A stretch of DNA of 62,109 nucleotides, taken from assembly GCA_035308905.1 (NCBI GenBank), contig DATGFS010000065.1, positions 1 to 62,109 on the forward strand, read 5' to 3'. A program made the position numbers and the translations under genes. Of the stretch, positions 7,414-19,701 are shown one piece after another (position 1 is the stretch's first letter; every line of letters begins with the position of its first letter). The notes under the pieces are model-generated. The model made no database searches. It saw only the letters and a program-made list of their open reading frames with translations, and was not told the DNA's origin. The stretch is from a bacterium. GTDB taxonomy: Bacteria; Sysuimicrobiota; Sysuimicrobiia; Sysuimicrobiales; Segetimicrobiaceae.

Positions 7414-8145
7414 ATGCGGCAGGCGTGCACGGCGATCTTGGCTCTCGTTCTAACCGGCGCGGCGGTCCTCAACCCTGTGATCCCCCGCGCGCCCGTCGAG
7501 GCCGCCGGGCCGACGGTGACCATTCCCGGAGATTCGTACCTGCCGCCGTCGATCATGATCGATGCCGGACAGACGGTCACCTGGATCAATAAAGATACCG
7601 ATCCGCACGTCACTACGACGATGCCCGGTACTCCGGCGTCGTTCACGCTCGTCCACCCGCCGGGGAAGCCGGCGTCGTTCAAGTTCACTACGGCCGGGAT
7701 CTACCCGTACTACTGTCTCGACCATGCCACCTTCAACACAACGCTCCGGCGGGCCGCGGCGCGCAAAGAAGCGGATACGTTCCCGGTGGCCATGGAAGGG
7801 CTCATCGTGGTCAAGGGACCGGAGCTCACGGGAATGCCGTCCGCGACGGTGAAGATCTCCGGGGACACCTATGCGCCCGATATCGCGGTTGTGCGGGTCG
7901 GCGGCAAAGTAACCTGGATCAACGCAGATCGCGCCGCGCACACGGCGATCTTCACGGGTGGCGGCGCGCCAAAACTCACGATCGCCGCCGGCAAGAGCGG
8001 CTCGGCCACATTCGCGAAGCCGGGGATTTACTTCTTCTACGATGAGCGGTTCGCGATGTACAACACCAAACTGGGGCTCGCGGCGGCCAAGAAGGGGGCG
8101 CCCCACTTTCCCGTCGCCATGCAGGGATACGTCGTGGTGCTCTAA
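7414..8145 (+). CDS. secreted tandem cupredoxin (two plastocyanin-like domains, 243 aa)
   Basis: A signal peptide (about residues 1-31) is followed by two plastocyanin-like repeats (about 33-135 and 143-243), each ending in FPVAM-[E/Q]-G. Domain 1 keeps copper-type ligands: His65 (DPHVTT), Cys101 and His104 (YYCLDH). No obvious methionine sits at the usual fourth position. Domain 2 keeps only His176 (AAHTAIF); its Cys/His loop reads FFYDERF, so it is probably copper-free. The protein should act outside the cytoplasmic membrane in electron transfer or copper binding. AGGAGG precedes the ATG. It lies 28 bp behind the degenerate kinase gene and may be co-transcribed with it. Confidence 0.85.
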   Translation: MRQACTAILALVLTGAAVLNPVIPRAPVEAAGPTVTIPGDSYLPPSIMIDAGQTVTWINKDTDPHVTTTMPGTPASFTLVHPPGKPASFKFTTAGIYPYYCLDHATFNTTLRRAAARKEADTFPVAMEGLIVVKGPELTGMPSATVKISGDTYAPDIAVVRVGGKVTWINADRAAHTAIFTGGGAPKLTIAAGKSGSATFAKPGIYFFYDERFAMYNTKLGLAAAKKGAPHFPVAMQGYVVVL

Positions 8146-9412: not shown

Positions 9413-9553
9413 CTAGCGTCGGCGGTTACTGAAAAAGGCCCGTAAGTGATCGACGCACATACGGCCATCTCTTCGAAACGATCAAACCGATTCCGGTCGA
9501 ATGGCCGGAGGATCTGCTCTGGCCCTCCGGTTACCCGTGGGAAGACAGGGCGA

Positions 9554-9664
9554 AGCCTGCTACGGGCAGTGACACTGATAAAATCAGGAGCAAAGCCCGC
9601 TAACCCTGCCTGCTGCGAACAGTGACATTGTACTGACAAACCCAGAACCAAACCCCGATAACCC
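9554..9664. repeat. two imperfect direct repeats of about 55 bp beside tRNA-Pro
   Basis: Units at 9554-9606 and 9608-9664 match at roughly 80% of positions, with one gap of about five bases. Read on the minus strand each begins GGGTTA and ends in AGCAGGC, with shared TCAGT and GTCACTG blocks. They lie directly downstream of the tRNA-Pro 3' end. Function unknown; a remnant of an integrated element or a small repeat family is possible. Confidence 0.6.
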
Positions 9665-9685
9665 TTGATAAATAAGGTCTAGAGA

Positions 9686-9762
9686 TGGTCGGGGAGGAGG
9701 GACTTGAACCCTCGGCCTCAGCGTCCCGAACGCTGCGCGCTACCAAGCTGCGCCACTCCCCG
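9686..9762 (-). tRNA. tRNA-Pro (anticodon CGG)
   Basis: The minus strand folds as a full cloverleaf of 77 bases. The acceptor stem is CGGGGAG/CTCCCCG, the D stem GCGC/GCGC, the anticodon stem CAGCG/CGCTG with loop TTCGGGA (anticodon CGG, reading CCG codons), and the T stem GAGGG/CCCTC with loop TTCAAGT. Discriminator A and the CCA end are encoded. The acceptor, anticodon and T stems pair without mismatches. Confidence 0.95.
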
Positions 9763-9854
9763 GCTTTGATTGCATGGGTGCCGGCCGCGGGTCGGCCAGC
9801 GGGCCTCATTGTAGCATCCGGCGCGGGCCGCGCACAATGCGGCGGCGGCGGGGC

Positions 9855-9938
9855 GGGCAGGAGGCCGCGAATGCGGCCGGAGGTCCCGCGTAGACGGGGC
9901 AGGAGGCGGCGAATGCGGCCGGAGGTCCTGCGTAGACG
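9855..9938. repeat. 42-bp tandem repeat, two copies
   Basis: Copies at 9855-9896 and 9897-9938 differ at only two positions. Each starts GGGCAGGAGGC and ends GCGTAGACG, and contains the complementary blocks CCGC and GCGG. A related single copy stands at 24224-24268 in front of ylqD, so this is a dispersed family. It lies in the leader of the crotonase-family gene at 9977. Its function is unknown. Confidence 0.75.
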
Positions 9939-9976
9939 GGGGAACGCGCCCGCCGGAGGAGAACGCTGTCGGCTGT

Positions 9977-10756
9977 ATGGACGAACTGCACGTGGTGCGC
10001 GACGGCGCCGTCGCCACGGTCACCCTCAACCGGCCCGAGAAGCACAACGCGATTACGGTGGCGATGTGGGAAGCGCTGCCCGGCGTGCTGGCGCCGCTCG
10101 CGGCGGACGCGGCCGTCCGCGCCGTCGTGGTGCGCGGCGCCGGGGAGGAGGCGTTCGCCTCCGGCGCGGACATCTCGGAGTTCGGCCGCGTGCGGAACGG
10201 CGCGCCGTCGGCGCGGGCGTACAGCGCGCTGGTGGCCGCGGCCGAGCGCGCGCTGGCGGACTTCCCAAAGCCGGCGATCGCGATGGTCCACGGGTTCTGC
10301 GTCGGCGGCGGCCTCGAACTGGCGCTCGCGTGCGATCTCCGGTGGACGAGCCCGTCGGGGCGGTTCGGCATCACCGCCGCGCGCCTCGGGATCGTGTACA
10401 GCCCCGACGCGACGAGGCGTCTCGCGCGCCTCGTCGGTCCGAGCCACGCGCGCGACCTGCTCTTCAGCGGGCGCCTCGTCGATGCGGCGGAGGCGCGCAC
10501 GATGGGACTCGTCAACCGCGTCTGCCCGTCCGGCGAGCTGGAAACGGCGACCTACGCCTACGCGGACATGCTCGCGCGACAGGCGCCGCTGTCGCAGCGT
10601 GGCGCGAAAGCGATGCTGCAACGACTGGCAGGGGAGGGAACGATGAGCGACCAGGACATCGCCGCGTTCGTCGAGGCCGCGTACGAGAGCGCGGACTACC
10701 GCGAGGGTGTGCGGGCGTTTCTCGCGCGCCGGCCCGCCCGGTTCGAGGGCCGTTGA
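9977..10756 (+). CDS. enoyl-CoA hydratase/isomerase (crotonase) family protein (259 aa)
   Basis: Crotonase fold with the oxyanion-hole segments ASGADISEF and GFCVGGGLELALACDLRW, and full family length. The two catalytic glutamates of classical hydratases are not conserved: the position of Glu144 falls in FGITAARLG as Ala, and that of Glu164 in HARDLLFSG as Asp. The segment LGIVY resembles methylmalonyl-CoA decarboxylase-like members more than hydratases. Decarboxylase, isomerase or hydrolase activity on an acyl-CoA is possible; a normal hydratase role is unlikely. It opens a four-gene acyl-CoA operon and has GGAGGA upstream of the ATG. Confidence 0.88.
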   Translation: MDELHVVRDGAVATVTLNRPEKHNAITVAMWEALPGVLAPLAADAAVRAVVVRGAGEEAFASGADISEFGRVRNGAPSARAYSALVAAAERALADFPKPAIAMVHGFCVGGGLELALACDLRWTSPSGRFGITAARLGIVYSPDATRRLARLVGPSHARDLLFSGRLVDAAEARTMGLVNRVCPSGELETATYAYADMLARQAPLSQRGAKAMLQRLAGEGTMSDQDIAAFVEAAYESADYREGVRAFLARRPARFEGR

Positions 10757-10758
10757 CA

Positions 10759-11967
10759 ATGGGACCGCTCGACGGCATCCGGGTGGTCGACCTGACGCGG
10801 TTTCTCGCGGGTCCCTTCTGCACGCAGGAACTGGGCGACTTCGGGGCCGACGTGGTCAAGATCGAGCCGCTCGACGGCGACCACTCCCGGAACCAGACCC
10901 TCCGGCCTCACCTGGTCGGCAACAGTTACTTCTTCGCCGGGGCCAACCGCAGCAAGCGCAGCATGGCCCTCGACGTGACGAAGCCGGCCGGGCGGGAGGT
11001 CGTCCTCCGGCTGGCGCGCCGCGCCGACGTCGTGATCGAGAACTTTCGGCCCGGAGTCATGGAGCGCCTCGGCTTCGGCGCGGCCTCGCTGCGCGAAGAC
11101 AATCCGCGCCTCATCTACTGCGGCGTGACGGGGTTCGGGCAGACCGGCCCGTACAGCGGCCGTCCGGGATTCGATCAGGTGGGGCAGGGCATGTCCGGCT
11201 TCATGAGCATCACCGGCCAGGAGCCGACCGGGCCGACCCGCGCCGGGATCGCGCTCGCCGATCTCTACTGCGCGATGACCGCCTGCCGCGGCGTGCTCTA
11301 CGCACTGCTGGCGCGAGAGCGGACCGGGCGCGGGCAGGACGTGTACGTGTCGATTCTCGACTCGATGGTCTCGCTGCTGACGTGGAGCGCCGGGATGTAC
11401 TTCGAGACGGGCACGCCGCCCGGCTTGGCCGGGAACTACCACCCGCTCGCGTCGCCGTTCGGCGTGTACCAGACCCGGGAGGGATCGTTCAACCTGTGCG
11501 CGGGCAATGAGGTCATGTGGCGGCGGCTGTGCGAGGCGATCGGCAAGCCGGAGCTCGCCGAGGACCCGCGCTTTCAGAACGTGAACGCCCGCGTCGCGAA
11601 CCGTCCGGCGCTCAACGCAATCCTGACCGAGGCGTTCAAGAGCCGGACGAGCAACGAATGGGTGCAGTATCTCAACGAGCGCGGCGTCGCCTGCGGACCG
11701 ATCTACAACCTCGCGGAAGTGTTCAGCGACCCGCAAGTCCTGCACAACGGGATGCTGGTGGAACGGCCGCATCCCGTCCACGGCGCCGTCAAGCTGATCG
11801 GCATCCCGATCAAGCTCTCCGAGACGCCCGGCGAGATCCGCCGGGTCCCGCCGATCCTCAACGAGCACGCCGACGAAATCTTGACGGAGGCGGGGTACGC
11901 CCCCGGCGAGATCGCGAAGCTGCGGGAAGCCGGTGTGCTGGGCGCCCGGCCCGCGGCGCGGGGATGA
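10759..11967 (+). CDS. family III (CaiB/BaiF) CoA-transferase (402 aa)
   Basis: Full-length CoA-transferase of the formyl-CoA transferase type. It moves CoA between carboxylic acids through an enzyme-bound anhydride and thioester. Conserved features include LDGIRVVDLTRFLAGP at the N-terminus, the VVIENFRPGVMERLG block and the likely catalytic Asp168 in IALADLYC, matching Asp169 of formyl-CoA transferase. The start ATG lies two bases after the stop of the crotonase gene, with GAGGG upstream. A second CoA-transferase of equal length follows. Acid and CoA donor are unknown. Confidence 0.92.
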   Translation: MGPLDGIRVVDLTRFLAGPFCTQELGDFGADVVKIEPLDGDHSRNQTLRPHLVGNSYFFAGANRSKRSMALDVTKPAGREVVLRLARRADVVIENFRPGVMERLGFGAASLREDNPRLIYCGVTGFGQTGPYSGRPGFDQVGQGMSGFMSITGQEPTGPTRAGIALADLYCAMTACRGVLYALLARERTGRGQDVYVSILDSMVSLLTWSAGMYFETGTPPGLAGNYHPLASPFGVYQTREGSFNLCAGNEVMWRRLCEAIGKPELAEDPRFQNVNARVANRPALNAILTEAFKSRTSNEWVQYLNERGVACGPIYNLAEVFSDPQVLHNGMLVERPHPVHGAVKLIGIPIKLSETPGEIRRVPPILNEHADEILTEAGYAPGEIAKLREAGVLGARPAARG

Positions 11968-11977
11968 CGCCGGACCG

Positions 11978-13186
11978 GTGACCCCCTCGCCTCCGCCCAC
12001 CGGGCCGCTCGCGGGCCTCCGCGTGCTCGACCTCGGCAACATGATCGCGGGGCCGTTTTGCGCCCGCCTGCTCGGGGACTTCGGCGCCGACGTCATCAAG
12101 GTGGAGCAGCCGGGACGGGGCGACCCGGTCCGGGGCTGGCGGAGCCAGTACCGGGGCCACTCTCTTCTATGGAAGACAATGAACCGGAACAAACGCGCCG
12201 TCACCCTGGACCTTCACGCGGAAGAGGGACAGGCCATCGCGCGCCGGCTCTACGACGCCTGCGACATCGTGGTGGAGAACTTCCGGCCGGGCGTGCTCGA
12301 GCGCTGGGGGCTCGGCTACGCGCAGGTGCGGGAGGCGGCTCCCCGCCTCATCATGGTGCGCATCAGCGGGTACGGCCAGACCGGTCCGTACCGTGACCGG
12401 GCGGGATTCGGCGGGGTGGCCGAGGCGATCTCCGGGGTCCGCTTTCTGACCGGGTACCCCGACCGGCCGCCGACGCGGGTTGGGTTCGCGCTGGCCGACA
12501 CCGTGGCCGGTCTGTACGGGGCGTTCGCCGCGATGGCCGCGGTGTCGGAGCGCGCGCGCAGCGGCCTCGGTCAGGAGATCGACGTCGCGCTTACGGAAGC
12601 CACCTTCAGCCTGCTCGACGATTTGCTTGCCGCGTATCAGAAGCTCGGCCACGTGGCCGAACGGCACGGTACCGGACTGCCCGGGGTCGCGCCGAGCAGC
12701 ATCTATCCGACGCGCGACGGGCAGTACATCGTGATCGGCGCCAACAACAACAATGTGTTCCGCCGGCTCGCAACGTTGATGGGCCGCGAGGACTGGCTCG
12801 CCGACCCCGGCCTGGCCAACGACCAGGGACGCGGCGGGCGCCAGGCCGAGCTCGACGCCGCGGTCGGCGCGTGGACCGCGCAGCACGATCTGGGCGCGCT
12901 TAACGAGCTGCTCGCCGCGCACGGGGTTCCGGCGGGGCCGGTCTACGACATCGCCGGCGTCGCCGCGGACCCGCAGTTTCGCTTCCGCGGGGCGATCGCC
13001 GAGGTGGACGATCCCGACGTCGGGCCGCTCGCGCTGCCGGGGGTTGTGCCGGTGATGAGCCGGACGCCCGGCCATATTGCCTGGGCCGGGGCGCGGCAGG
13101 GCCAGCACAACGCGGAAGTCTACGGCGAGGTGCTCGGGCTGAGCGGCCGGGACGTCGAGGCGCTCCGGGACCGCGGGGTCATCTGA
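11978..13186 (+). CDS. second family III (CaiB/BaiF) CoA-transferase (402 aa)
   Basis: Same fold and length as its upstream neighbour, but clearly diverged. It has LAGLRVLDLGNMIAGP, the block VVENFRPGVLERWG and the likely catalytic Asp174 in FALADTVAG. I chose the GTG at 11978, ten bases after the previous stop, because the conserved N-terminal block follows soon after; the frame is open further upstream but lies inside the first transferase. Two family III transferases in tandem suggest either a heteromeric enzyme, as in succinyl-CoA:malate CoA-transferase (SmtAB), or two acids activated in one pathway. Confidence 0.9.
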   Translation: MTPSPPPTGPLAGLRVLDLGNMIAGPFCARLLGDFGADVIKVEQPGRGDPVRGWRSQYRGHSLLWKTMNRNKRAVTLDLHAEEGQAIARRLYDACDIVVENFRPGVLERWGLGYAQVREAAPRLIMVRISGYGQTGPYRDRAGFGGVAEAISGVRFLTGYPDRPPTRVGFALADTVAGLYGAFAAMAAVSERARSGLGQEIDVALTEATFSLLDDLLAAYQKLGHVAERHGTGLPGVAPSSIYPTRDGQYIVIGANNNNVFRRLATLMGREDWLADPGLANDQGRGGRQAELDAAVGAWTAQHDLGALNELLAAHGVPAGPVYDIAGVAADPQFRFRGAIAEVDDPDVGPLALPGVVPVMSRTPGHIAWAGARQGQHNAEVYGEVLGLSGRDVEALRDRGVI

Positions 13187-13214
13187 GGCCGGCCTTGGCG
13201 AGGTGGATGCGTTC

Positions 13215-14132
13215 ATGAAGCTGCCCGGGGCTGTGACGATCTCGGAAGTGGGGCCCCGCGACGGGTTCCAACTCGTCGGCCGTGTGATCCCAACCGAGAC
13301 CAAGATCCGCGTGATCCGCGCGCTCTACGACGCCGGTGTGCACGACATCGAGGTCACGTCGTTCGTGTCGCCGAAGGCCGTGCCGCAGTTCGCGGACGCG
13401 GACGAGGTTGCGCGCGCCGCGCTGCGGCTGCCGGGACTGCGCGCGTCGGCCCTCGTGCCAAACTTGAAAGGCCTGGAGCGCGCGCTCGCCGCCGGCATTC
13501 GCGCCGTGACGGTGGTGATCGGGGCGACCGACGCGTTCAATTCGGCGAACGTCCGGATGACCGTGAGCCGATCGCTCGAGCAGCTGGCCGCGATTACGGA
13601 GGCGGCGCGGGCGCTGCCGGGGGCGTCCATCGAGGCCGGCATCGCGGTCGCGTTCGGCTGTCCTTATACCGGACCGGTGCCGCTCGACGCGGTGGAGGCG
13701 ATCGTCGAGCGGGCGGCGGCCCTCGGGATCACCTCGGTCAGCCTCGGCGACACGATCGGTGTCGCGACGCCCACGCAGGTCGCCGGCGCCGTAGCCCGGC
13801 TGGCGGGAATCTACCCCGGCGCCCGCCTCGCGCTGCACCTGCACGACACGCGCGGCATGGGGCTCGCCAACGTCCTGGCCGGGCTGGACGCGGGCGTGAC
13901 CACGTTCGACGCCGCGATCGGCGGCCTCGGCGGTTGCCCGTTCGCGCCCGGCGCGACCGGCAACATCGCGACCGACGACACCAACTATATGCTGCGCGGG
14001 ATGGGCATCGAGACCGGCATCGACCAGGAGGGCCTTCTCGCCTGCGGCCGGCTGGTGGCCGAGACCGTAACGGCGGACCTCCCGAGCCACGCGCTCCGGG
14101 TGCACCTCAGCCGGGCCCGACCGACGAGTTAG
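13215..14132 (+). CDS. hydroxymethylglutaryl-CoA lyase family protein (305 aa)
   Basis: A TIM-barrel lyase of the HMG-CoA lyase family. It shows EVGPRDGFQ near the N-terminus (substrate and metal residues), LHLHDTRGMG with two metal-binding histidines, and the signature GLGGCPFAPGATGNIAT with the active-site cysteine loop. Such enzymes split 3-hydroxy-3-methylglutaryl-CoA, or related tertiary hydroxyacyl-CoAs, into acetyl-CoA and a keto acid. A GTG at 13203 is an alternative start; the ATG at 13215 has the better-spaced GGCGAGG. With the two CoA-transferases it suggests activation and cleavage of a branched C5-C6 acid. Confidence 0.9.
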   Translation: MKLPGAVTISEVGPRDGFQLVGRVIPTETKIRVIRALYDAGVHDIEVTSFVSPKAVPQFADADEVARAALRLPGLRASALVPNLKGLERALAAGIRAVTVVIGATDAFNSANVRMTVSRSLEQLAAITEAARALPGASIEAGIAVAFGCPYTGPVPLDAVEAIVERAAALGITSVSLGDTIGVATPTQVAGAVARLAGIYPGARLALHLHDTRGMGLANVLAGLDAGVTTFDAAIGGLGGCPFAPGATGNIATDDTNYMLRGMGIETGIDQEGLLACGRLVAETVTADLPSHALRVHLSRARPTS

Positions 14133-14221
14133 AGTGGTTTCGCAGGATTTTTCTCACGTTTCTCGAACTACGCCGGGACATTAACGCCGAATAACCTACG
14201 CAGCACTCATCGGAGCAGACA

Positions 14222-14887
14222 ATGGCGCAGACGTTGCGGGACTGGTACCGCTACCTCGAACGGCAGATGCATGTCTCCCTCCCGGAACCGGTCACGTCCT
14301 TGAACGCCGGCCCACCCGACGCGCTCAGCCGTCAGATCGGTGCGGTCGAGCCGGCCGGCTCTAGGCCTGCGGCTTCAATTTCGTCGTGGCCCGCGGCGGG
14401 TCCGCGGGCACGAGCCAAAATCGCGCCGGCCGCCACGAAATCACCGCCGGCCCAGCCGAACCCGGTCGCGGTAGCCGCCGCCGTGGGCGCCCGGGCTACA
14501 TCCGGGACGCCCGGCGAGGCCGGCGGCGGGCAGGGCTCGCGGGCGGCCCTTGAAGCCGAGGCCCGCGCCGACGCCGTCCGCCGGAGTCTCGGCGCCGGGC
14601 CCGATCAGCGGGCACTGCCGATGGAGCTCGGCCCGCGTGGGCGGGGCGGCCGGCGCCCGATCACGGAGAGCCGCGAGGAGATCATTCGCCGGCTGCTCGA
14701 TCCCGAGATCAGCCTGCACGAGGCGGCCGCCGTGCTCAACCTGAGCAAGGCGACCGTGCGCCGCTACACCGACCAGGGGAAGCTGGCGTGTCTACGCACC
14801 GAGGGCGGGCAGCGGCGGTTTCGCCTGTCCGCGCTGCTCGGCTTTCTCGACGTGCAGTCACAGGCGCGCGGCGAGACCGCCGGGTAA
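14222..14887 (+). CDS. helix-turn-helix DNA-binding protein with disordered middle (221 aa)
   Basis: The C-terminal 75 residues carry a MerR/excisionase-like winged helix-turn-helix: ISLHEAAAVLNLSKATVRRY, then a wing with GGQRRFRLSALLGFL. The N-terminal 35 residues are a separate conserved-looking helix (LRDWYRYLERQM). The middle (about 40-130) is Ala/Pro/Gly-rich and probably disordered. It likely binds DNA as a regulator or nucleoid-associated factor. It sits 1 bp from the glycosyltransferase gene that precedes smc, but gives no direct clue to its targets. Confidence 0.8.
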   Translation: MAQTLRDWYRYLERQMHVSLPEPVTSLNAGPPDALSRQIGAVEPAGSRPAASISSWPAAGPRARAKIAPAATKSPPAQPNPVAVAAAVGARATSGTPGEAGGGQGSRAALEAEARADAVRRSLGAGPDQRALPMELGPRGRGGRRPITESREEIIRRLLDPEISLHEAAAVLNLSKATVRRYTDQGKLACLRTEGGQRRFRLSALLGFLDVQSQARGETAG

Positions 14888-16072
14888 GTGCACGTTGGCC
14901 TGTTCACGGATTCCTACCGGCCGCGCACGAGCGGCGTGGTGACGGCGGTCGAGACGTCGGCGCGGCAGCTGCGGTCGCGCGGCCACCGGGTCTCCATCGT
15001 GGCGCCGGCGTACCCCGGTTACGCCGACGTGGACCCCGACGTCGTGCGCGTCCCGTCGGTCACCCCGCCGGGCCACCCCGACTTTCCGCTGGCGCTGCCG
15101 TATCCCGGCCGTGCGCTGCGGGCCGTGCGCGCGCTCGGCCTCGATCTCGTGCACACGCACTCGCCGTTTCTGCTCGGCGGCATGGGCTGGTGGGCGGCGC
15201 GGGCGCTGGGGCGCCCCGTGCTCTTCACGTACCACACCCGGTACGACGAGTACGCCCACTACGCGCCGGTGGTCGGCGAGCTTGCCCGGCCGCTCGTGAG
15301 CGCCTACGCGACGGTCTACTGCAACCAATGTGACTGCGTGCTTGCGCCGCTCCCGTCGATCGCGGCGCTGCTGCGCGACGCCGGCGTGCGCGTGCGGGTG
15401 GTCGTGGTGCCGAGCGCGGGCATCGACGTCTCGGCCTTTGCGCCGCAGCCAGGGTTCGCGGGGGACGAGCGGACGGCCGTGCGCGGCCGGTTCGGGGTGC
15501 CGCCCCGCTCGCCGCTCCTCGTGTTCGTCGGGCGCCTGGCGCGGGAGAAGAACGTGGCGCTCCTGCTCGCGGCGCTCGCGGCGCTGCCGTCCGAGGTGCG
15601 GCTGCTGCTCGTCGGCGACGGTCCCGAGCGCGCCGCCCTCGAGGCGCAGGCGAAAGACGCCGCGCTTACCTCGCGCGCGGTCTTCGCCGGCACGCAGCCG
15701 CCGGCGGTGGTCGCCCAGGTGCTGGCGGCGGCCGATCTTTTTGTCTTTCCGTCGACGACGGAGACGTTCGGGATCGCGATGATCGAGGCGATGGCGGCGG
15801 GCTGCGCCGTGGTGGCCGTGCGGGCCCCCGCCTCGTCCGATCTCGTCAGGGACGGCGAGACGGGGCGTCTCGTTCCGGCGGATCCCGGCGCGTTTGCGGA
15901 GGCCGTCCGCGACCTGCTGGCGCAGCCGGCCCGGCGCAGCGCGATGGGTGGAGCCGCCCGGGCGGCCGCGGCGGACTACGACCAGGCGCGCGTCACCGAT
16001 CGCCTGTTGATCGTCTATCAGGAGCTGCTCGCGCGCCAGCGCGTCGCGGGAGGGGGACTCACGTGCGTCTGA
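14888..16072 (+). CDS. glycosyltransferase family 4 protein (394 aa)
   Basis: A GT-B glycosyltransferase. The N-terminal half starts HVGLFTDSYRPRTSGVVTAV, typical of the glycosyltransferase 4 fold. The C-terminal half has VFVGRLAREKN and the donor-binding E-x7-E motif in TTETFGIAMIEAMAAG. Close relatives include diacylglycerol glucosyltransferases and mannosyltransferases that make glycolipids at the cytoplasmic membrane face. The exact acceptor is not visible. The GTG start lies next to the previous stop, and the 3' end overlaps smc by 10 bp. Confidence 0.88.
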   Translation: MHVGLFTDSYRPRTSGVVTAVETSARQLRSRGHRVSIVAPAYPGYADVDPDVVRVPSVTPPGHPDFPLALPYPGRALRAVRALGLDLVHTHSPFLLGGMGWWAARALGRPVLFTYHTRYDEYAHYAPVVGELARPLVSAYATVYCNQCDCVLAPLPSIAALLRDAGVRVRVVVVPSAGIDVSAFAPQPGFAGDERTAVRGRFGVPPRSPLLVFVGRLAREKNVALLLAALAALPSEVRLLLVGDGPERAALEAQAKDAALTSRAVFAGTQPPAVVAQVLAAADLFVFPSTTETFGIAMIEAMAAGCAVVAVRAPASSDLVRDGETGRLVPADPGAFAEAVRDLLAQPARRSAMGGAARAAAADYDQARVTDRLLIVYQELLARQRVAGGGLTCV

Positions 16073-19000
16073 AACGGCTCGAGCTCACGGGGTTCAAGAC
16101 GTTCGCGGACCGCACCGCCTTGGAGTTCTCCCCGCGCCTGACCGCGATCGTCGGCCCCAACGGCAGCGGCAAGAGCAACATCTTCGACTCGATCCGCTGG
16201 GCCCTCGGCGAGGGCAGCCTGCGCGCGCTGCGCGGCGTGCGCAACGAGGATGTGATCTTCGCCGGCAGCGAGCGGCGCCGGCCGCTCGCCATGGCGGACG
16301 TGACGCTGGTGCTCGACAACGGGGACGGCACGCTCATGATGCCCCTCGACGGCGACGACGCCGCGCCGACGCCGCTCGCGTTCGCGGAGGTCACGGTGAC
16401 GCGGCGGGCGCTGCGGGCCGCCGACAGCCGCTATTTCATCAACACCCTCCCGTGCCGGTTGCGCGACATTCAGACGATGTTTCTCGGCACCGGTCTCGGC
16501 GGGCACACCTACGCGCTCGTGACGCAGGGCGAGGTCGACCGCATGCTCGACGCGACGCCCGAAGAGCGGCGGATGATCCTCGAGGAGGCCGCGGGCCTCG
16601 CGAAGTTCAAACGCCGCCGGCACGACGCGGAGCGCCGCATGGCGGCCGCGGACCAGCTGCTGCTGCGCGTGGCGGACATCCTCGCGGAGCAGGACGCGCG
16701 GGTCGAGACCCTCGCGGCACAGGCCGATGCCGCGCGGCAGTATCAGGCCTACACGCAGGAGCTGCGCGGGCTCGAGCTCGCCGTTCAGGTCGAGGAGGTC
16801 CGGCGGCTGGCCCGCGCGCAGAAGCGCGTTCAGGACCAACTCGAGCAGATCGCGGTGAAGCGCCGCGACGTCGAACGATCGCTCGCGGCCCTCGCGGAAG
16901 AACGGGCGGCGCTGGACCGGCGCGCCGCGGACGCGGGCCGGGAGTGGGACGACGCCCAACGGTCGCTCGTCCGGCTGACCGAGCGCCGGGCGGCCGAGGA
17001 ATCCGCCGCGCAGCTGCTCGCCGAACGCCGGCGGGGCGTCGCCGCGCAGCGGGCCCGGCTCGACGCGGAGATCGCCCGTGAAGGGGCGGAGGCCGGCCGT
17101 CTCGCCGATGAGCGCGACGACCTCGCGCGCCAGGACCGGTCGCTCGCCGCCGAGGCGGAGCGCCGCCGCGGAGACGTGGCCGCCGCGCAGGACGCCCTGC
17201 TGCGGCTGGAAGAGAGCACCGCGCGAGACGAGGCGAGGGCGGCGCAGGCGCGAGATGACGCGCGCGCGCTCGCGGATTCCCGCGCGCGGGCACATGCCGA
17301 TTTCGCCACGGCGGACGCGCGGGTGGCGGCCTATCTCGATCGGGCCGCGGCGATCGCCGGCCGGCTGCGGCATCTGCGCGAACAGGCCGCGGAGATCACC
17401 GCACGGCGGGAGACGCTGACCGCCGAGCTGGCGCAGATCACGGCCGCCCTCGACGCCCGGCGCAGCGCGCTGCGCGCGCTGCGCAACGAGCACGAGCAGG
17501 GCGAGGCGCACCGCGACGAACTGCTGGCGGAGGTCCGCCGGGTGGAGATGGAGCGCGAGACGCTCCGGTCGCGTCTTGCGTTTCTCGAGGAGGCGCACGC
17601 GCAGTTCCGAGGCTACGATGCCGGCGCGCGCGATCTGCTCCTCGCCCGCCGCCGCGAGCCGGAGCGCTTTACGGCGCTGCGGGCCGTCGTGGCCGAGGTG
17701 ATTCGCGCGCCGCGGGAGATCCGTCCGGCCGTGGAGGCCGCGCTCGGCGCGGCCGCCTCGGCGCTGATCGTCGGGACGATCGACGACGCCCACGCGCTGC
17801 GGCAGGCCGCAGGCGGCGAGGCCGGCGAGATCGCCTTCCTGCCCCTCGCGCTCGTCCGGCCGCTGCCGGCGCCGGCGCTTCCCGCCGAGGCCGCCGCGGA
17901 TCCCGGGTTTGCCGGCCGGGTCCTCGACCACATCGAAGTCGAGGGAGAGCACGCCGGCGCGGTCCGCGGCCTCTTGGGCGACGCCGTGTTCGCACGCGAC
18001 CTCGAGGCGGCCGTCCGCATCCGGGCCGCCGGCTACGAAGGCCGGATCGTCACGCTGGCCGGCGACGGGGTGTCGGCGCTCGGAGTGGTGACCACCGGCC
18101 GCCGCGCGCCCGGGCAGACCGGGACGGTGGGACGGGCCGAGGAGATCGCCGAGGCCCGCGCCGCCCTCGAGCGGCTGGAGGCGGCGGCGCGCGACTGCGC
18201 CGCGCGGATCGACGCCGCGACGGCGCGGCTCCGGGAGATGGAAGCGGCGGTCGCGCAGGCGGACGCGGGCATCACCGAGGAAAGCGACCGGCGGGGCGAC
18301 GCCGACCGGCGGCTCGTGCTGCTCGACGCCGAGCGCGCCCGCATCGACGACGAGCTCGCCGCGCTGGCCGCGGAAGCGCGGGCGGCGGAGGACGCCGTTC
18401 GGGAACACGAGCAGGCCCGGGACCGGTTCGCCGCGGAGGCCGCCGCGCTCGAGCAGCGGATCGCCGGGCTGGAGGGCGAGGCGGAGGATCTATCGGTCCG
18501 GCTGCGCGATCAGGCGCTCGCCGCCCGCGGCGCCCGGGAGGCGCTTACCGAGGCGCGCGTCGCCATTACCGAGTTGGAGGGACGTCGCGCGGGCGTCCGC
18601 GCCCGCGCCGCCGAGGCCGAGCGGAGCATGGCCGCGGCGGACGAGCGGCGCCGGGCGCTCGAACTGGAGGGCACCGGCCTCGATGCCGACGCCGCCGCGC
18701 TTGAGGCGGAAGAGGCGGCCGCGCGGGAGCGGTGCGCCGCGTTGACCGGGGAAGGCGAGCGCCTCGAGGCGTCACTCGCGGCGCTCGACGAAGAACGCGC
18801 CGCGGTCGCGGGACGCCGGGCCGAAGTGGAGCAGCAGCACGCGGACGCGGCCGGCCGCGCGGAGGCGCTCGCGGAAGACGTGCACCGTGTCGAGCTCCGG
18901 CAGGCCCAGGTGGACGCGGAGATCGGCAGCGCGCGCCGGCGCATCGAGGAAGAGTTCGGCCTGCCGTTCGATCGCGCCGCATCCGAGGCCCCCGAGTCGA

Positions 19001-19701
19001 TCGAGCGCGACGAGACCCTCGGCCGCATCGAGGCGCTGCGCGGCCTCATCGCGTCGCTCGGACCGGTCAACCTGATCGCGATCGAGGAGCACCGCGCCGC
19101 GGTGGCCCGCGCGGACGCGCTGCGCGAGCAGTACGACGACGTCGCGGGAGCGCTCGAGGCCCTGCGGGGCCTGATCGCGGACCTCGAGACGGTGATCCGC
19201 GAGCGGTTCGAGGAGACCTACCGCGCCGTCAACGACGAGTTCAGCGGGCTGTTCGTGCGGCTCTTCGGCGGCGGCCGCGCCGGGTTGGATCTCGTCACGG
19301 TGGAGGGCAGCGACGAGCCCGGCATCGACATCGTCGTGCAGCCGCCGGGGAAGAATCTTCGTAGCCTGAGCGCCCTGAGCGGGGGCGAGCGCGTCATGGT
19401 ATCGCTCGCGTTGATCTTCGCGATGCTGCGCGTGCGGCCGAGCCCGTTCTGCGTCTTCGACGAGGTGGAGGCGGCGCTGGACGAGGCGAACACGCGCAAG
19501 GTGGCCGAGGTGCTGCGTGAGCTCACCGAGCAGACGCAAATCATTATCATTACGCACAACAAGGCGACCATGGAGTCGTGCGACGTGTTGTTCGGCGTGA
19601 CGATGGAGGAGCCCGGGGTCTCGCACATGGTGTCGGTTCGGCTGCAGGAGGCCGCGCAGACAGGAGAGGACGCGCAGCTCGAGCAGCAGCCCGTCGGTTG
19701 A
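16063..19701 (+). CDS. smc: chromosome segregation protein SMC (1212 aa)
   Basis: Full-length SMC condensin ATPase. It has the Walker A motif GPNGSGKSN (residues 31-39), two long coiled-coil arms rich in Ala, Arg and Glu, a hinge around residues 520-650, the ABC signature LSGGERVMVSLAL near 1105 and a Walker B FCVFDEVEAALD near 1130. It organises and separates newly replicated chromosomes together with ScpA and ScpB, which are not in this window. The GTG start overlaps the glycosyltransferase gene. A very long antisense frame in this gene is only a shadow of its biased codons. Confidence 0.97.
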   Translation: MRLKRLELTGFKTFADRTALEFSPRLTAIVGPNGSGKSNIFDSIRWALGEGSLRALRGVRNEDVIFAGSERRRPLAMADVTLVLDNGDGTLMMPLDGDDAAPTPLAFAEVTVTRRALRAADSRYFINTLPCRLRDIQTMFLGTGLGGHTYALVTQGEVDRMLDATPEERRMILEEAAGLAKFKRRRHDAERRMAAADQLLLRVADILAEQDARVETLAAQADAARQYQAYTQELRGLELAVQVEEVRRLARAQKRVQDQLEQIAVKRRDVERSLAALAEERAALDRRAADAGREWDDAQRSLVRLTERRAAEESAAQLLAERRRGVAAQRARLDAEIAREGAEAGRLADERDDLARQDRSLAAEAERRRGDVAAAQDALLRLEESTARDEARAAQARDDARALADSRARAHADFATADARVAAYLDRAAAIAGRLRHLREQAAEITARRETLTAELAQITAALDARRSALRALRNEHEQGEAHRDELLAEVRRVEMERETLRSRLAFLEEAHAQFRGYDAGARDLLLARRREPERFTALRAVVAEVIRAPREIRPAVEAALGAAASALIVGTIDDAHALRQAAGGEAGEIAFLPLALVRPLPAPALPAEAAADPGFAGRVLDHIEVEGEHAGAVRGLLGDAVFARDLEAAVRIRAAGYEGRIVTLAGDGVSALGVVTTGRRAPGQTGTVGRAEEIAEARAALERLEAAARDCAARIDAATARLREMEAAVAQADAGITEESDRRGDADRRLVLLDAERARIDDELAALAAEARAAEDAVREHEQARDRFAAEAAALEQRIAGLEGEAEDLSVRLRDQALAARGAREALTEARVAITELEGRRAGVRARAAEAERSMAAADERRRALELEGTGLDADAAALEAEEAAARERCAALTGEGERLEASLAALDEERAAVAGRRAEVEQQHADAAGRAEALAEDVHRVELRQAQVDAEIGSARRRIEEEFGLPFDRAASEAPESIERDETLGRIEALRGLIASLGPVNLIAIEEHRAAVARADALREQYDDVAGALEALRGLIADLETVIRERFEETYRAVNDEFSGLFVRLFGGGRAGLDLVTVEGSDEPGIDIVVQPPGKNLRSLSALSGGERVMVSLALIFAMLRVRPSPFCVFDEVEAALDEANTRKVAEVLRELTEQTQIIIITHNKATMESCDVLFGVTMEEPGVSHMVSVRLQEAAQTGEDAQLEQQPVG

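Follow-up and report, generated by a model that had tools for sequence, protein, structure and literature searches.

A Four-Gene Operon of Segetimicrobiaceae Joining Two CoA-Transferase Modules, and a Possible Role in 2-Alkylmalate Breakdown

The DNA analyzed here, hereafter the window, is a stretch of 62,109 nucleotides from a bacterium of the family Segetimicrobiaceae (phylum Sysuimicrobiota; contig DATGFS010000065.1, assembly GCA_035308905.1). Its forward strand carries four closely packed genes, encoding a crotonase-family protein (ECH; 9977..10756, 259 aa), two family III CoA-transferases (CT1, 10759..11967, and CT2, 11978..13186, the latter with a GTG start; 402 aa each) and a lyase of the hydroxymethylglutaryl-CoA (HMG-CoA) lyase family, which begins at 13215 (ATG) or 13203 (GTG) and ends at 14132. 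ECH-CT1 and CT2-lyase are two separable modules that are also found apart. The set is neither an artefact nor an entirely new pathway; in it, two known kinds of gene pair are joined in one operon. The lyase, which gene databases call HMG-CoA lyase, probably has a different job here. Tentatively, and with somewhat less than even confidence, the whole may be read as a composite catabolic operon, in which CT2 and the lyase would act on a 2-alkylmalate in the manner of Sct and Ccl, and ECH and CT1 on an unsaturated or modified acid.

Gene Content and Variation of the Operon Site

The gaps between the genes are 2 bp (ECH-CT1), 10 bp (CT1-CT2) and 16 or 28 bp (CT2-lyase, for the GTG and ATG starts, respectively). 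The longer value is the likelier one because the start of lyase orthologues matches position 13215 or the codon just before it. All four are real genes, as shown by their uninterrupted reading frames and their conservation among the orthologues of the family. Pfam assigns them to ECH_1 (1.4e-49), CoA_transf_3 (5.2e-132 for CT1 and 1.3e-124 for CT2) and HMGL-like (2.1e-44). A sequence-only reading of this DNA had proposed these gene families, their tight spacing on one strand and a CoA-transferase beside a tertiary-hydroxyacyl-CoA-type lyase, all of which is borne out. A consensus scan of 9500-14400 gave no sigma-70-like promoter.

The family is represented by 12 genomes (G000-G011). Five have the full four-gene set, three in one genus (G000, G001 and G002) and two in another (G006 and G008). 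At the operon site, G004 and G005 have ECH-CT1 alone, with neither CT2 nor the lyase, and G007 and G009 have CT1 alone beside MerR, glycosyltransferase and SMC genes, with CT2-lyase on another contig. The contig of G010 stops after CT2, and in the other 11 genomes the glycosyltransferase and SMC genes lie downstream of the site. The site upstream of glycosyltransferase-SMC thus carries a variable operon made up of ECH-CT1 and CT2-lyase. The two transferases, which the sequence-only reading took as a pair, need not occur together. A heteromeric CT1/CT2 enzyme was also considered and is weakened, because CT1 stands without CT2 in G004 and G005 and both proteins retain the catalytic Asp.

Second lyase clusters were seen in three family genomes: PrpD-acyl-CoA dehydrogenase-ECH-lyase in G003 (L044:2210-6666), MmgE/PrpD, transferase, ECH and lyase in G011 (L045:1007-6564), and transferase, acyl-CoA dehydrogenase and lyase in G005 (L163:3-3055). 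They resemble the methylsuccinate cluster of Pseudomonas, but their lyase is of the HMGL family.

A search of 43 genomes of the phylum outside the family gave CT2 relatives (E <= 1e-125) in G015, G032, G028 and G034. In G015 and G032 these lie close to genes for a lyase, LeuC, LeuD and transport, and G015 also has GntR. In G028 (L161:3657-7792), TetR, HpaB-type hydroxylase and SDR genes precede the CT2 relative and no lyase turned up in the 14 kb, and G034 has open reading frames (ORFs) equal in size to those at this locus.

The CT2-Lyase Module

Both CT1 and CT2 carry the CoA_transf_3 domain and the catalytic Asp of family III (Frc-type) enzymes, and this Asp is kept in all 64 rows of the transferase alignment. 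Sequence searches of the PDB by themselves leave the substrates unseparated, CT1 and CT2 each matching SUGCT, Frc and YfdE. Of the seven NCBIfam CoA-transferase models listed, not one scores either protein at or above its cut-off. On the transferase tree, CT2 falls in a clade of 25 rows (SH-aLRT 98), which includes three Chloroflexus/Roseiflexus transferases adjoining a lyase-family gene as well as LeuCD-linked transferases of Cupriavidus, Pusillimonas, Peribacillus, Bacillus, Domibacillus and Noviherbaspirillum. Smt falls just outside this clade (96), and SUGCT and YfdE lie elsewhere. The loss of the Asp from one Smt subunit had been expected, an expectation that failed since both Smt rows have it.

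The Chloroflexus pair was reached through a mesaconyl-CoA transferase search of 400 genomes, a sample of the phylum of Dictyobacter, which gave 25 matches at 1e-150. In G200, taken to be C. aurantiacus J-10-fl, a lyase gene adjoins the best CT2 match (48% identical), with GntR in front, and the two transferases beside the mesaconyl-CoA transferase, taken to be Smt, are 41 and 38% identical to CT2. The order GntR, CT2-like transferase, lyase is common to G200 and to G015 of the window's taxonomic order, in which LeuC and LeuD come next. The C. aurantiacus pair is presumably sct-ccl, and Friedmann et al. are said to have tested the (R)-citramalate activities of its products in 2006. As given in the part of the source used here, Sct is succinyl-CoA:(R)-citramalate CoA-transferase (EC 2.8.3.20) and Ccl is (R)-citramalyl-CoA lyase (EC 4.1.3.46; PMC8307300). 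The window thus resembles this system in having a CT2-type transferase of the same clade next to an HMGL-family lyase in the same order. It differs at the front of the operon, where ECH-CT1 stands in place of GntR, and hydantoinase A/B genes lie behind the Chloroflexus pair.

The lyase residues R19, D20, E50, H212, H214, C245 and N254 (numbered from the GTG) are invariant in the 14 rows of alignment A1. We take them to be catalytic or metal-binding in human HMG-CoA lyase, and the window lyase has the complete set. Its fold family, metal and catalytic residues are common to it and the HMG-CoA lyase of the leucine pathway, from which it differs in standing beside a transferase; the other copy in the genome is near a carboxyltransferase gene. 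The NCBIfam model for hydroxymethylglutaryl-CoA lyase (cut-off 246) gives 340.5 for the window lyase, 348.6 for one C. aurantiacus lyase and 271.5 for the transferase-linked C. aurantiacus lyase. This model does not discriminate, because the transferase-linked lyase passes too.

In a lyase tree of 107 rows, loci were classed by a transferase within 4.5 kb and by the presence or absence of a gene for methylcrotonyl-CoA carboxylase (MCC). The 49 transferase-linked rows (38 labeled CT, 7 of the window clade and 4 of Chloroflexus type) and the 28 MCC-linked rows need 2 changes on this tree, against 19 or more (mean 23) in 200 shuffles; the 25 rows with neither neighbor are excluded from this count. 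Two labels were set by hand: L044 (G003) as CT, following its sister L045, no transferase being seen on the 7.9-kb contig of L044, and L043 as MCC from a neighboring carboxyltransferase. One row counted as having neither, L076, has LeuC nearby and lies some 6 kb from a CT2 relative, past the 4.5-kb limit. The HMG-CoA lyases of human and B. subtilis belong to a 42-row clade (support 99) without any transferase-linked row, and C30, the other lyase encoded in the window's genome, sits in it. The window lyase clade (100) lies outside this group on the best tree, and also outside a second MCC-linked clade of 7 rows (100). Because it is outside both MCC-linked clades, the window lyase is probably not the HMG-CoA lyase of leucine breakdown. 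The group nearest to the window clade (88) includes sphingomonad LeuCD-lyase-transferase clusters. The deep branching order is weak; a tree that unites the window clade with G015/G032 and the Chloroflexus lyases is not rejected (p-AU 0.476). An F/Y difference after GGCP was set aside, as one search pattern required F.

Occurrence Outside the Phylum

Genome contigs were scanned with patterns from an alignment of 13 transferase-linked lyases. Of 585 confirmed matches, the best 80 make up the named loci counted here. Among them, 28 have a transferase without MCC, 27 have MCC without a transferase and 25 have neither, counts that are not prevalences because the patterns were built on transferase-linked lyases. 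At the transferase-linked loci the transferase is on the same strand in 28/28 and within 300 bp (<=300 bp) in 24/28; ECH is present at 2 of them and two transferases at none. LeuC/LeuD genes occur at 7 of these 28 loci versus 0 of the 27 MCC-linked ones. A CT2-type transferase is near the lyase in Cupriavidus pBB2 (with leuC and leuD), Peribacillus (both subunits), Geobacillus (leuC) and Skermanella, and the Thermomicrobium plasmid lyase has no transferase annotated within 6 kb. None of the 80 best loci holds the four-gene set outside the family. Co-conservation beyond close relatives, on which the sequence-only reading would stand or fall, was thus not seen for the full set among these loci, and the two pairs recur in other phyla. 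A literature search, judged by titles and abstract openings in one library, found no paper on the four-gene set.

LeuCD enzymes belong to the aconitase family and use malate-type acids as substrates. The LeuCD neighbors fit a conversion of citraconate to (R)-citramalate and not HMG, and CT2-lyase is therefore read as a 2-alkylmalate module.

Hydantoinase/oxoprolinase A and B genes were also observed beside CT2-type transferases, with a lyase in Chloroflexus (L190:3339-7341), with a lyase and an isochorismatase in Geobacillus (L057:264-4761), and with an isochorismatase and no lyase annotated nearby in Rubrobacter (L058:6261-10867). Possibly, breakdown of cyclic imides or amides feeds the acid route of CT2 in these bacteria.

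The ECH-CT1 Module

The ECH_1 domain places ECH in the crotonase superfamily, and the protein barely passes the NCBIfam PRK06127 subfamily model (291.2 bits, cut-off 291). In classical crotonase, catalysis depends on two glutamates, Glu144 and Glu164 of the rat enzyme. ECH keeps the glutamate of the GGGxE motif (E114) and has Ala134 at the second position, which is Glu in Thermus enoyl-CoA hydratase and in none of 13 aligned crotonases (A3). The crotonase had already been called atypical in the sequence-only reading, and rightly so. Hydration is uncertain because this second Glu is absent, and an isomerase role appears as likely.

ECH relatives at E <= 1e-55 were found in 20 of 386 genomes (six candidates scored per genome), nine of them in the window's family. 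A CT1-like neighbor was present at 3 of 15 loci checked, which came from 12 of the 20 genomes with flanks of at most 1.5 kb, and one of the three is G010 of the family itself. G017, from another family of the same order, has ECH at 57% and no transferase among the neighboring ORFs scanned. CT1 belongs to a clade of 17 rows (95) with ECH-linked and some lyase-linked transferases. Relatives of CT1 stand next to lyases in Halomonas, Billgrantia, Geminicoccaceae and Skermanella. Transferase-crotonase pairs of CaiB/CaiD type, with no lyase annotated alongside, show the same adjacency in Azospirillum, Variovorax and Sphingobium; the ECH-CT1 pair of the window differs in being joined in one operon with CT2-lyase. 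In G000 (C8:27790-40048), a further transferase-crotonase pair has a LeuC-like gene and a weak match to the lyase superfamily within about 10 kb.

Proposed Function and Alternatives

In the composite operon that we tentatively propose, CT2 would transfer CoA from succinyl-CoA to a 2-alkylmalate, with (R)-citramalate as the best guess, and the lyase would cleave the resulting (alkyl)malyl-CoA in a retro-aldol reaction to acetyl-CoA and a 2-oxoacid, or pyruvate in the case of citramalate. CT1 and ECH would load CoA onto an acid that is unsaturated or modified in some other way, and then isomerize or hydrate it. Their product may feed the operon lyase, taking the place of the LeuCD-type hydratase of some relatives. 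The substrate, its stereochemistry, the direction of the reactions and the coupling of the two modules are what we infer from sequence. The sequence-only reading is partly supported: of its candidate substrates, a citramalate-type acid would be favored over HMG by the CT2 clade and the LeuCD neighbors of relatives.

Several observations weigh against this proposal. The NCBIfam score of the window lyase, near 348.6 and above 271.5, speaks against a special likeness to Ccl. The protein is 43% identical to the Chloroflexus lyase, its clade is apart from the Chloroflexus lyases on the best tree, and this clade is without the N-E pair that follows RDGxQ in the human, B. subtilis and four Chloroflexus-type lyases. 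Forcing the window clade with all MCC and PDB rows against the CT and Ccl rows costs 11.8 log units and is not rejected (p-AU 0.311), and five transferase-linked rows (L099, L101, L108, L121 and L126) are on the MCC side of the tree. On the transferase side, 4 of the 25 CT2-clade rows have no lyase seen alongside, and the sphingomonad LeuCD-linked transferases (L105, L123 and L132) fall outside the CT2 clade though their lyases are near that of the window. The LeuC of G015/G032 has no close orthologue in the 12 family genomes (best 43%), and ECH lacks the two-glutamate pattern of classical enoyl-CoA hydratase. Furthermore, G003 has ECH-CT1-CT2 followed by glycosyltransferase and SMC genes with no operon lyase, and G011, whose contig begins inside CT1, has CT1-CT2 followed by the same genes, again without this lyase. 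The second lyases of G003, G011 and G005 might replace the missing one. The arrangements in G004, G005, G007 and G009 also suggest that the modules may be independent.

Taken further, this independence would mean two unrelated pathways on one transcript, with ECH-CT1 and CT2-lyase acting on different acids without a common intermediate. The separate occurrence of the modules in the four genomes just named and the lyase-free transferase-crotonase pairs of Azospirillum, Variovorax and Sphingobium are in line with this; yet the four genes stay joined in two genera, and CT1 relatives are also lyase-paired in other bacteria, so that we consider it somewhat unlikely. The operon could instead serve HMG, with ECH handling methylglutaconyl-CoA. 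Such a role accords with the intact catalytic residues of the lyase, its NCBIfam score, the unrejected grouping with MCC-linked lyases and the best solved relative of CT1, succinate-hydroxymethylglutarate CoA-transferase (E 5.5e-83). But the same model passes the transferase-linked C. aurantiacus lyase, a different lyase of the genome falls within the MCC clade, CT2 is placed with the Chloroflexus transferase that adjoins a lyase and away from SUGCT, and the LeuCD neighbors of relatives point to malate-type acids; an HMG pathway is thus unlikely.

The remaining alternative is a linear itaconate or mesaconate route, an unrelated counterpart of Ict-Ich-Ccl, in which CT1 would form itaconyl- or mesaconyl-C4-CoA, ECH would isomerize or hydrate this to citramalyl-CoA and the lyase would yield pyruvate and acetyl-CoA, with CT2 as a side entry for citramalate. 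The Ccl of the Pseudomonas/Cupriavidus cluster is of the CitE family, not HMGL. The likeness of the operon to this cluster (CoA-transferase, hydratase/isomerase, citramalyl-CoA lyase) is one of reaction logic, as judged from the portions of the two sources used here (PMC12290011, PMC9875883). That cluster adds acyl-CoA dehydrogenase and MmgE/PrpD, and the same kinds of genes surround the other lyase in G003, G011 and G005, which are without the operon lyase. The absence of the second hydratase Glu from ECH and all 13 aligned proteins, and of any transporter or regulator among the four genes pointing to a C5 acid, makes such a route quite unlikely.

As stated in the part of PMC9875883 used here, neither (R)-citramalate nor citraconate was used by P. 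putida with the Pseudomonas cluster, and there is thus room for a route specific to the R form; an R-specific lyase would complement Ict-Ich-Ccl. More broadly, though this is doubtful at present, CT2-type transferases with HMGL lyases may constitute an R-branch of C5/2-alkylmalate catabolism that is widespread and mostly misannotated, consisting of LeuCD-like hydration of citraconate-type acids, Sct-like activation and cleavage to acetyl-CoA and a 2-oxoacid. The window's family would then have swapped LeuCD for a second transferase and a crotonase without one catalytic Glu.

Genomic Surroundings

Downstream of the operon, MerR-like, glycosyltransferase and SMC genes follow nearly without gaps (14222-19701). 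The first encodes a MerR/HTH_17-type DNA-binding protein (14222..14887, forward strand), a neighbor that may or may not belong to the operon, and is also present in G001, G002, G005, G007 and G009. Upstream, a tRNA-Pro gene (9686-9762, reverse strand) is directed away from the operon, and a tandem repeat of a 42-bp unit in 2.1 copies (9855-9941) lies directly before it. The interval 9845-9965 has 45 matches in its own genome, itself counted, and the repeat is therefore regarded as a member of a dispersed family. The two halves of a protein encoded at 7414-8145 match two different cupredoxin-type families.

Biological Significance

Within a single family, and at one chromosomal site, the two transferase modules of the operon occur both joined and apart. 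Transferase-linked lyase genes are labeled HMG-CoA lyase because the NCBI subfamily model passes leucine-type and transferase-linked lyases alike. If the transferase-linked clades are of the citramalyl type, predictions of leucine or HMG metabolism from such genes would be in error, and a pathway using (R)-citramalate and citraconate could then be tested. Indeed, if the R-branch is true, it would cover substrates outside the described S-specific Ict-Ich-Ccl pathway.

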